Source: Gemmatimonadota bacterium
GTDB taxonomy: Bacteria > Gemmatimonadota > Gemmatimonadetes > Longimicrobiales > Gaopeijiaceae
Assembly (NCBI GenBank): GCA_029262115.1
Contig: JAJCZZ010000011.1
Span: 1-57,806, forward strand
Length of the DNA stretch: 57,806 bases
Direction: 5' to 3'
In this document: positions 37,156 through 42,308 of the stretch, piece after piece
How the letters are laid out: every line of letters starts with the position of its first letter
Position numbering within the stretch: position 1 is the stretch's first letter
The notes under the pieces: generated by a model
The model's database searches: none
Seen by the model: the letters and a program-made list of their open reading frames with translations, nothing else
What the model was told of the DNA's origin: nothing
Position numbers and translations under genes: made by a program

Positions 37156-38157
37156 GTGGAGAGTCAGCGGACCCGCCGCCCCCACGGCCGTGCGTTTCTT
37201 CTCGCCACCGCTGTGCTGGCTTCGTCGTGTGTGGACGGTCGGAGCCCGGCGGATGTCGGTTCGCTGGAGGCCGTGCACCTTACCGCTGCTCCGGTCTTCG
37301 TGGGCGAGGTCCTTGCCGCTGAAGCAGCCGCGCTCGACCGTGCACGAGTGACCGCACTTCACGGATCGGACGGGTCGGTTCTGGGCACGGTGGAGAAGCC
37401 GCTCGACCCGACCGCATCGGAGTGGGTGATCGACCTCTCGTTCGAGGTGCCTGCGGATCAACCTGTTCCCGTGCGCCTTCGGGTCGAACTACTGGGCCCC
37501 GAAGCGGTGGAGTGGAGTGGTCAGACCGCCTCATTCGAGGTTCGGGGTGGTGGCGGGGCCAAGGAGATCCGGCAGGTCTCGCTCTTTCGAGGTCCGTTGG
37601 ACAACCTGACGGTCACGCGCGTGGAACTCAGCGGACCTGACGTGCTCCTCACCGGTGAGACGACGAGTCTCTCGGCGAGCCTGACGGGTGGAGGCGGCGG
37701 TTCAAAGACGTTCTTCGAAAGCCTCGATGGCTCCGTGGCAACGGTGGACGGCGCCGGCCGTGTGCGGGCGATGGCCGCAGGTGTGGTTCGCGTCGTGGCC
37801 TGGGCCGGGCCGGCTTCGGATACGGTGTCGATCACGGTCCGAGACCTCGTGCTGCCCGAGGACGATCCCGCCATAGCATCGGTCGGGCCGGGGCTCGAAG
37901 AGACCGCCGGTCGGATTACGGCAAGTATGGGTGACGCGGCCGCGGCGGGTGCGATTTCCGACGCGCTCAGCCGGCTGGGTGCCGCCTTGGACATCCGGGA
38001 CGGGCCCGAAGCCGTGCGCGCGTTCGAGGCCGCGCGGGCTGCATGGGCCGGGTACGGTGCAGGGACCGATCTGCGCCTACTCGACGCTCCGCAATTGGGA
38101 TTGATCGAGATCACGTTGATTCACGCGGCGGATGCCATCGGCATCGCGTTCCGATGA
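37156..38157 (+). CDS. Lipoprotein with bacterial Ig-like (Big2) domain
   Basis: A 333-residue lipoprotein; lipobox AVLASSC about 23 residues in. The GTG start at 37156 has AGGAG five bases upstream. Residues about 150-235 form a Big2-like Ig domain ([47 protein letters not shown]). The C-terminal third is helical and Ala-rich, without recognised motifs. The stop is 11 bases from the start of the collagen-like gene, which has its own AGGAAGG site, so the two are likely co-transcribed and both surface or envelope located. Confidence 0.77.
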
Positions 38158-38168
38158 GGAAGGCCAAT

Positions 38169-39290: not shown

Positions 39291-41421
39291 TCGAGACGAT
39301 GTGAGAGGCGGCCCCCCACCCCACGGGAGCGGGGCCCCTGTAGTTATAGGGTGGACCGCCGGGGACTGTCGGCGGCAGCTCGCCGCGAGCCGCGAGCCGC
39401 TCCTGAACCCACGCGAGGTTGTTCCTGGCCAACGCATCGTCGGGTCGCACCGCGAGGACCTGCTGGAACGTGACCGCCGCGAGGGCATTGAAGCCAACTT
39501 GAGCCTGCGACCAACCGAGGTTGAGGAGCGCATCGAGATCCCCGGGCACCGCGGCCAGATACGCTCGGTATGCCAACCCTGCGTCCAGGTGGCTGCCCTC
39601 ATTCGTGAGCGCCAAGCCGCGCTCGTATCCGTCCGCCGGGGGCACTCCGCCCGGGGAGTCGCTCAGAAGCTCATTGGCCACGGGGTCGTCAGCGTCGTGA
39701 TCGAGAATCCCTTCGGCCAGTCGGCGCACCTCGTCGGTCGCCCCGAGGAGATAGTAGAGTTGGAGAAGCAAGTGCCCAGGATCCGCGTACGTCGGGGCCA
39801 AGCCCACCGCCGTCCTGAGGTGGTCGATCGCTTCGGGGCCGCGGCCTGAGCGGACGAGGAAACGAGCGTAGAAGTGATAGCCCGGCACGTACCGGGCGTC
39901 GAGCGCCAAGGCCCGCAGAAAGTGGGCTTCCGCCGCCACCGGATCACCCAATCGATTGGTGACGATGCCCAGGTTCACGTGAACCGGAGGGTAGTTCGGG
40001 GACCGGGCGACGGACTCCCCGAAAAGTCGCGCCGCCTCCGGGTATTCGCCCTCCGCCATCCGAGCGAGCCCGTAGTTCATCCACGCACGACCGTTGCCGG
40101 GGCTCTTCTCGACGACATCCGCCCACAGTGTCTCCTCGGTTCGCCAGTCGCGGTTACGAACAGACGTTCCGATGGCGTGCGCGGCCAAGAGCGTCGCCAC
40201 GGCGGCAGTCCATCGCCAGGAAACGCTCGACGCCCGTCCTGAGGACTCGGCCCCGGGGGCGGCTCGCGCCCGCCGCGCACCCCACACCACCGCCCATACC
40301 GAGGCGAGCGTCAGACCAACGAAGGGGAGGTAGAGGCGATGCTCGTTCACGACCTCCGCCAGCGGAAAGACACTGGAGGACGGGAGGAGGCCCACGAAGA
40401 ACCACATGAGCCCGAAGGCGATGGGTCGCGTGGCCGCTCGTCGCGAGCCAGCGATCGCACCCATCACGCCGAGAGCGGCCGCGCCCCATCCGACCACGAC
40501 CCGCGTATCGGTCCATGCCTGGACGACGGTCCAGTCGGTGTCGGCCGTGAGACCCACCGGAGCGACGAACAGTCGAGCGTAGTGGAGCCACGCCCATCCC
40601 TGGGTTCGCAGGTATCCGATTCGGTCGACCCCGCCGTAGTCCTGGCCTGCGGAGTTCATGGCCTCCACGAGAACGAACGCCGCCGTCCCGGCCACAAAGA
40701 CGGGTGCCGCACGCAGGAGCGCGCGCCAGATGCGATCTCCCCGTTCGGGTCGGGCGATGTCCGCCAGCGACAGCTTTTCCTCGAAGAGCCAGATCCAGAG
40801 AAGGAACAGGGGCGCGAACATCACAGCGGGCGGCTTGGCGAGCGCCCCAGCCAACATCGGGATGAGGTAGAGCCATCCGTGCCGGCTCCACGGCAGATAC
40901 AGGTAGGTTACGAACGACCCCAGGATGCCCAGCGTGGAGAGGATATCCGACCGGGCGGAGAGGTAATTCACGGTCTCCGTGTTCGCCGTATGTACCGAGA
41001 AGATCGTAGCCGCCAGAAGCGCCGGCCAACGTGCATCCAGGTCCAGTCCGGCCCGCTGGAACGTGCGGAACGCAAGCAGCCCGACCCCCGCGGCCACCAG
41101 GAGATGAAGGAGGAACTGGGTGGCGTGGAACACCACGGGGTCGAGTCCGCCCGCGACCGCGTAGTCCACGGCGAGCGACGTGGAGAGAAGGGGCCGGTAT
41201 GTCTGATGGTCAGTCAGCGTGCTGAACGTTGCGGCGTCGGTGAAGAACCGGGGCACGTTCCCGAGGTCCCGGATGGCGAGATTGTCCTCGATGACGTGCG
41301 CGTCGTCGAAGTGGAACGCATTGCGGAAGTGGTTGGCGTAGGCACCCAGCGTCAGCGCGACCGCCGTACCGATGCCGAGCGCGAAGCCCCGGGATGCGCC
41401 CCCCCACGTCGCACCGCTCAT
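39250..41421 (-). CDS. TMTC-like membrane glycosyltransferase with TPR domain
   Basis: A 723-residue protein. The N-terminal 430 residues are a polytopic GT-C-like region that begins with the TMTC/PMT loop signature [20 protein letters not shown] and contains the [36 protein letters not shown] and [18 protein letters not shown] motifs typical of bacterial TMTC-type proteins. Residues about 470-700 are TPR repeats ([40 protein letters not shown]). Eukaryotic TMTCs are O-mannosyltransferases using a dolichyl-phosphate donor. The start overlaps the GT2 stop (ATGA). It converges on and overlaps the collagen-like gene. Confidence 0.84.
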
Positions 41422-42308
41422 CCGTCGTCGGCTTGGCGGCGCCGGATGGCGGCAAGCTGCTCGGCGAGCAGGCCCAGCGCGAACAGAACCACCCCGGTCA
41501 CGATGGCGAGCATCGAACCCACGCTCACACCGCGTCCCACCAGAACAATGGGGATGCCCCACGCGAAGCCTGCGCCCCAGGCGAGCAGCGCGAGCGGGAG
41601 GAAGATCCGCATCGGGCTGAACAGGGTGACGATGTTGAGGATCTCGATGACCGTGTCGAGCGCGGTTCGTGCGGACACGGTGCTCCGACCGCCCTGCCGC
41701 GGGCGGACCGCGACGGGATGTTCGATGACCCGGTGCCGCCGGTGGAGGAAGATCAGCGTCATGACATCGCTGAACGCCATCGTGTCGGGGCAGAGCCCGA
41801 GATACCGCTGGGCCAGCGGGGTCCGGTAGAGCTTCAGGCCTGAGTTCAGGTCGCGTACCGAGTTGGGCATCAGAACTCGCGTGAGCGCCCGGATGACCCA
41901 CTTCCCGACGCTTCGATAGGTGGACGACGTGCCGCGGCCACGGTCTCCGACCAGCAGGTCGGCGTCCGCCTCGACGGCCACGGCGAGGAGGTCCGGCAAC
42001 CCCTCAGGATCGTGCTGCCCGTCGGCGTCGAACGTAACGGCCCATGGTCCCTCGACGGCGGCGAGCCCCGATTTCAGAGCCCCGCCGTACCCGCGGGGGA
42101 GCTTGTGACGGATCACGTGGGCTCCACCCTTCTCCGCCACCTTCGCCGTTTCGTCGGAGGACCCGTCGTCGACGACCACGACCACCCAGTCACGCGGCCC
42201 ACAGACCTCGGACAGAGCTCGCAGCGTCTCGGGGAGCGCTTCGGCCTCGTCGAGGGCTGGTACCACGATCGTGAGGGCGGGCCGTGCCGACGTGCCGGAC
42301 CGTGCCAA
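41418..42308 (-). CDS. Family 2 glycosyltransferase, polyprenyl-phosphate sugar synthase-like
   Basis: A 296-residue GT2 enzyme resembling dolichol-phosphate mannosyl/glucosyltransferases (DPM1/GtrB-like): ALTIVVPALDEAEALPETL, VVVDDGSSDETAKVA, the catalytic DxD in VTFDADGQHDPEGL, DLNSGLKLYRT, and PVAVRPRQGGRSTV. Two C-terminal membrane helices anchor it. There is no ATG in a sensible position; the TTG at 42308 with an AGGCGG-like site is chosen. It is upstream of, and 4 bases overlapping, the TMTC-like transferase, so it plausibly makes the lipid-linked sugar that enzyme uses. Confidence 0.84.
   Translation of the reverse strand: MARSGTSARPALTIVVPALDEAEALPETLRALSEVCGPRDWVVVVVDDGSSDETAKVAEKGGAHVIRHKLPRGYGGALKSGLAAVEGPWAVTFDADGQHDPEGLPDLLAVAVEADADLLVGDRGRGTSSTYRSVGKWVIRALTRVLMPNSVRDLNSGLKLYRTPLAQRYLGLCPDTMAFSDVMTLIFLHRRHRVIEHPVAVRPRQGGRSTVSARTALDTVIEILNIVTLFSPMRIFLPLALLAWGAGFAWGIPIVLVGRGVSVGSMLAIVTGVVLFALGLLAEQLAAIRRRQADDG

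Follow-up and report, generated by a model that had tools for sequence, protein, structure and literature searches.

How collagen-like proteins of Gram-negative bacteria are modified and stabilized without hydroxyproline is largely an open question. The stretch of DNA analyzed here, 57,806 nucleotides from a Gemmatimonadota bacterium (the window), bears on it, as a gene for a secreted collagen-like protein runs head-on into a gene for a membrane protein resembling the TMTC O-glycosyltransferases. Does this locus encode a bacterial collagen side by side with the enzymes that glycosylate it? The features concerned are as follows.

37156 to 38157, plus strand: protein with a single bacterial Ig-like domain (Big_2), secreted or lipoprotein-like (Pfam, translation)
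38154 to 39290, plus strand: collagen-like protein (translation and Pfam Collagen)
38361 to 39044, plus strand: uninterrupted Gly-X-Y region, the proposed acceptor; 33 of its 76 triplets (43%) carry Thr at Y
39250 to 41421, minus strand: TMTC-like protein of 723 amino acids, a proposed glycosyltransferase (Pfam TPRs, alignment, AlphaFold model)
41418 to 42308 (start approximate), minus strand: DPM1/GtrB-like GT2, a proposed polyprenyl-phosphate sugar synthase (Pfam, translation)

Elsewhere in the window, a large secreted protein joins a TolB-like propeller to an amidohydrolase (44043-47417), and another amidohydrolase gene adjoins it (42271-43896).

Genes and proteins of the locus

The collagen-like open reading frame, which stops at 39290 and probably starts at ATG 38154 (alternatively 38172), encodes a signal peptide, a cysteine-containing N-terminal head, the Gly-X-Y triplets, and a C-terminal head. 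With its long uninterrupted repeat, its secretion signal, and a match of 120.7 bits (E 2e-35, cut-off 27.2), it belongs to Pfam Collagen (PF01391), and no other strong collagen gene occurs in the window's genome of 5.45 Mb. The first-pass annotation had counted 75 perfect triplets, 33 of them with Thr at Y; the 33 threonines stand, while the triplets come to 76, unbroken. The 41-base overlap that it described between the convergent collagen and TMTC-like genes is exact (39250-39290). Taken alone, Thr at 43% of Y positions is unremarkable, moderately above the bacterial collagen mean of 31.6% (PMC8968730).

Directly upstream, the Ig-like reading frame opens at TTG 37015, with GTG 37156 as the likelier start; at its end, the stop codon (38155-38157) and the collagen ATG at 38154 share bases as ATGA. 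Pfam recognizes Big_2 in its product (E 4e-7), and the lipobox (ASSC) is non-canonical. The only other genome of the phylum found to carry a close relative of the TMTC-like enzyme (G755, of the same class and described below) likewise shows a lipoprotein-like gene just upstream of its collagen, with weak similarity to that of the window (E 0.004, single comparison), and the N-terminal heads of the two collagens resemble each other. The earlier suggestion that the Ig-like protein could anchor the collagen fiber finds little support.

The TMTC-like gene starts at ATG 41421, since its homologues begin at the equivalent position, and this codon overlaps the GT2 stop (41418-41420), again as ATGA. 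Its product is predicted to comprise a GT-C membrane domain at about residues 10-425 and a TPR superhelix at about 429-678; the C-terminus beyond about residue 678, which holds the region of gene overlap, lacks conservation and is modelled poorly. Pfam detects the TPRs and, at an E-value of 0.01, neither DUF1736 (PF08409) nor the PMT family, so that the GT-C assignment rests on the structural model. The order of eukaryotic TMTC proteins, GT-C followed by TPRs, is present, but the DUF1736 loop between TM7 and TM8 was not found by Pfam, and we therefore use the label TMTC-like rather than TMTC.

The AlphaFold model (pLDDT 83.6, pTM 0.80) has a polytopic membrane fold that matches yeast STT3 of the oligosaccharyltransferase (Z 18.6 over 351 residues), ArnT (Z 16.1), and Pmt1 (Z 14.8), and its C-terminal half aligns with TPR superhelices; these matches identify the modelled protein as a GT-C protein with C-terminal TPRs. 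The GT-C matches came from fold comparison. Plain Foldseek ranked TPR proteins at the top, and a TMTC profile run against solved structures returned TPR proteins only among the 60 matches listed. An alignment of 13 sequences shows Y28, N34, F38, D39, D40, H42, R76, D294, D296, E356, H361, and R362 to be invariant, among them the acidic pair (D39, D40) in the first extracytoplasmic loop that is expected of a GT-C enzyme.

The neighboring GT2 matches PF00535 (E 8e-25) and carries DDGS and DAD motifs and two C-terminal hydrophobic helices, giving it the GT2 catalytic domain with DxD and the membrane helices of DPM1/GtrB-like enzymes. None of the named equivalogs AglJ, PpgS, and PgfS exceeds its cut-off (best 81 bits vs 325). 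The first-pass view that the GT2 is coupled to the TMTC-like gene is moderately supported across the subfamily: a GT2 lies within 6 kb at 42 of 77 loci, and none does at the other 35. Within the same distance, Pfam names DUF2304 at 19 loci, a carbamoyltransferase at 13, and a GMC oxidoreductase at 11. These accessory genes suggest a modified sugar, possibly carbamoylated or oxidized. A recurring cassette near the enzyme combines GT2, DUF2304, carbamoyltransferase, GMC oxidoreductase, and a small partner reading frame (L017:6879-14503, L019, L087, L014, and L148:4099-8889).

Adjacency and co-presence across genomes

The first-pass annotation proposed conservation of the neighborhood as a check. 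The close relatives of the window lack the TMTC subfamily, but where the subfamily occurs it is generally accompanied by collagen. The 97 relatives searched hold only paralogues of about 30% identity, and the examined loci of such paralogues, in the window's own and the surrounding genomes, lack collagen; synteny in close relatives is for this reason uninformative as a test. The window's own genome has two such paralogues in tandem, with a GT2 alongside and no collagen (G000:C10:34204-38465, L171). Among 220 genomes of the phylum, one further subfamily member was found, in G755 (742 bits; all others at most 245 bits). That genome has a single collagen gene (416 triplets, 1601 amino acids), located 1.1 kb upstream of its TMTC-like gene and in the same orientation; a small reading frame, a GMC oxidoreductase, and a GT2 come next. 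The searched genomes of the window's genus and family have no member of the subfamily, whose closest kin belong mostly to other phyla, which suggests that 39250-42308 was acquired horizontally.

To look beyond the phylum, genomes were picked by TMTC sequence similarity alone in a scan of GTDB species genomes. This returned 13 loci at 32-47% identity in Acidobacteriota, Bacteroidota (including Flavobacterium and Filimonas), and delta-/Proteobacteria MAGs, and a Gly-X-Y gene lies within 8 kb at eight of them. With the window excluded, a collagen gene is found no more than about 8 kb from the enzyme in 10 of 14 genomes, against 0.11 expected (P about 1e-19), the collagen genes of these genomes having been counted by hand from match lists. 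Where a genome has a single collagen gene, that gene is enzyme-adjacent in four of seven cases (0.03 expected); at L011, L014, and L017, the only collagen gene of the entire genome is the one near the TMTC-like gene. In the acidobacteriote G902 the distance is 5.6 kb, and in Filimonas zeae (L015) it is about 2 kb. Among Flavobacteriaceae, the enzyme is found in four of 299 genomes, with a collagen within about 8 kb in three (G107, G577, and G622). A wider Bacteroidota sample gave a weaker signal, with collagen within 9 kb at five of 58 loci against 1.0-1.7 expected, an expectation raised by the many collagens that these genomes hold.

Mapped on the enzyme tree, collagen linkage switches no fewer than 12 times, and 15 times in the most parsimonious count; it has therefore been gained or retained repeatedly and does not go back to a single accident of inheritance. 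A diverged acidobacterial clade of TMTC-like proteins (L165:4-4107, L168:8826-13202, and L169:8826-13823) matches the query at 93-108 bits; its genes converge with those for GPT/GPQ-rich collagens at about 1.4-1.5 kb, which is the layout of the window despite the distant sequence. ClpV-like and type VI secretion-like genes, recognized by eye, adjoin this clade. Also by eye, several copies of proteins like the phage tail collar (microcystin-dependent protein) were seen beside collagen/TMTC loci (L009:2230-2799, L009:15081-15608, and L015:2124-4065).

Enzyme and collagen also occur together at the level of whole genomes. The following tests compare related genomes, with phylogeny only partly corrected for. 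In one Bacteroidota class, PF01391 exceeds its cut-off in 57 of 61 genomes with the TMTC-like enzyme vs 20 of 61 without it (Fisher p 1.2e-12), and the median number of matches is 18 vs 0; four genomes with the enzyme have no collagen. Type IX secretion (T9SS) content was considered as a confounder, sorting domains being present in 59 of the 61 enzyme-free genomes, and was rejected, as the contrast persists among genomes with at least 40 such domains (57/61 vs 16/45, p 2e-10). All four Flavobacteriaceae with the enzyme have collagen, against a background of 78 of 299 (p 0.004), and 74 of the 295 family members lacking the enzyme have collagen as well.

Could the adjacency in the window be chance, and the co-presence a by-product of lineage or habitat? 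The enzyme is missing from the nearest relatives and adjacency is weak in the Bacteroidota sample, as such an account would have it. The 10 of 14 genomes against 0.11 expected speak against it, however, as does an association that holds both in T9SS-rich genomes and inside one family, and we consider this account nearly refuted. Co-occurrence, whose lack in relatives the first-pass annotation had set as a finding that would count against its proposal, is present in three forms: adjacency in many phyla, co-presence, and the threonine enrichment described below. The pairing of the TMTC-like enzyme with collagen is real, a conclusion in which we have high confidence.

Threonine at Y and a proposed mechanism

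Thr at Y follows the enzyme. Its median fraction is 0.44 in linked collagens and 0.37 in unlinked collagens of genomes with the enzyme, vs 0.16 and 0.08 in enzyme-free genomes of the Bacteroidota class and of Flavobacteriaceae, respectively (p 4e-9); unlinked collagens of enzyme-bearing genomes also differ from those of enzyme-free genomes of the class (p 0.002). GC content was examined as the cause and rejected, as it does not explain the difference. In G622, the linked collagen has Thr at 0.79 of Y positions and two other collagens have 0.00, and some 4 kb away from the enzyme, at L154:14256-16274, there is a (GRTGLT)n collagen whose 164 triplets have Thr at 99% of Y. Within ten genomes, linked and unlinked collagens do not differ significantly (p 0.1), as would be the case for an enzyme that serves every collagen of its cell in trans.

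O-glycosylation of Thr at Y by the TMTC-like enzyme is likely, given the gene arrangement, the fold, and these statistics. We regard the locus as probably a dedicated module for collagen O-glycosylation, in which a membrane O-glycosyltransferase passes a polyprenyl-phosphate-borne sugar to Thr at Y; we infer the sugar transfer, the donor, the Thr acceptor, the timing, and the purpose. The GT2 would place a sugar on polyprenyl phosphate at the cytoplasmic face, and a putative flippase would turn it over. The TMTC-like enzyme could then move the sugar to Y-position threonines of collagen chains emerging from Sec, before the triple helix forms, while its predicted periplasmic TPR superhelix might grip the chain. 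Animal collagen chains need to be modified before trimer formation (PMC8968730), and a membrane-bound enzyme working on the emerging chain would satisfy the same need. The sugars may assume part of the stabilizing and protective role that hydroxyproline has in animals.

A broader function can also be considered, in which the enzyme would O-glycosylate secreted proteins in general, with collagens simply as some of its richest substrates; co-presence would then arise because surface proteins with much Thr build up in genomes able to glycosylate them. Most Bacteroidota loci are not collagen-adjacent, the unlinked collagens of enzyme-bearing genomes are likewise Thr-rich, and the four enzyme-bearing genomes without collagen fit as well. 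Yet a general enzyme would not need to sit beside a collagen gene, as it does in four of the seven single-collagen genomes, and we think this function unlikely. Another possibility is that the substrate of the enzyme is a polysaccharide, or some other glycan, of the matrix that houses the collagen, the two being linked as parts of a shared surface structure and not as enzyme and substrate. The carbamoyltransferase, GMC oxidoreductase, and DUF2304 genes around many of the loci point to an elaborate glycan, and collagens without the enzyme exist; however, Thr-Y enrichment follows the enzyme, and TPRs joined to GT-C are the architecture of the TMTC protein O-glycosyltransferases, which makes a matrix glycan quite improbable as the substrate.

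If the dedicated collagen module is taken further, it may represent a widespread machinery that has spread laterally among Bacteroidota, Acidobacteriota, and other phyla, with Thr-Y glycosylation during export replacing proline hydroxylation, and with the clade as collagen-specific kin of the animal cadherin O-mannosyltransferases. We advance this extension tentatively and rate it slightly below an even chance.

Relation to known glycosylation systems

A review names collagen glycosylation in Bacillus and Clostridioides difficile only (PMC8968730). The present pairing would give the bacterial branch of TMTC-like enzymes a class of substrates and supplies a genetic marker for the responsible enzyme, so that the question can be put to the test in hosts that grow in culture, Filimonas zeae for example; it would also offer a tool for producing glycosylated recombinant collagen. 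In the literature searched, which covered few subscription papers and is no proof of absence, we found no description of a TMTC-like/collagen pairing. The first-pass annotation had called the system undescribed, and this survives for the enzyme class. C. difficile already provides a case of a collagen gene that neighbors the gene for its own Thr glycosyltransferase: the SgtA gene lies immediately upstream of bclA3, and the enzyme attaches O-GlcNAc to threonines in the collagen repeats (PMC7157674).

The likeness to SgtA/BclA3 lies in a glycosyltransferase gene adjoining a collagen-like gene and, in C. difficile, an O-linked sugar placed on Thr in vitro (PMC7157674). The enzymes belong to different classes: recombinant SgtA, fused to MalE, was assayed with UDP-GlcNAc serving directly as donor (PMC7157674), whereas the neighbor of the window's collagen is a polytopic GT-C and TPR protein for which a polyprenyl-phosphate donor and a site of action outside the cytoplasm are predicted.

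To our knowledge, no TMTC-like enzyme takes part in glycosylation of BclA, the exosporium glycoprotein of Bacillus. That protein is a glycosylated bacterial collagen of the spore (PMC8968730). The human O-mannosyltransferases TMTC1-4 share with the window's enzyme an N-terminal GT-C region, C-terminal TPRs (non-cytosolic, as predicted for the window's enzyme), and conserved acidic motifs, and their polyprenyl-phosphate donor would be a further likeness; they differ in acting on cadherins and in having as their hallmark the DUF1736 loop (PMC7801869), which Pfam did not detect in the window's protein.

In the Pgf system of Streptococcus mutans, the GT2 PgfS and the PMT-like PgfM1 are encoded beside the adhesin that they modify, and the modification shields the adhesin from protease (PMC5856776). 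There, however, the modified proteins, Cnm and WapA, are not collagens, the description of PgfM1 mentions membrane helices only and no TPRs, and the surface is that of a Gram-positive cell (PMC5856776). The module proposed for the window merges the ideas of SgtA/BclA3 and PgfS/PgfM1, a collagen beside its glycosyltransferase and a GT2 beside a membrane transferase, with a TMTC-like enzyme in the latter place.
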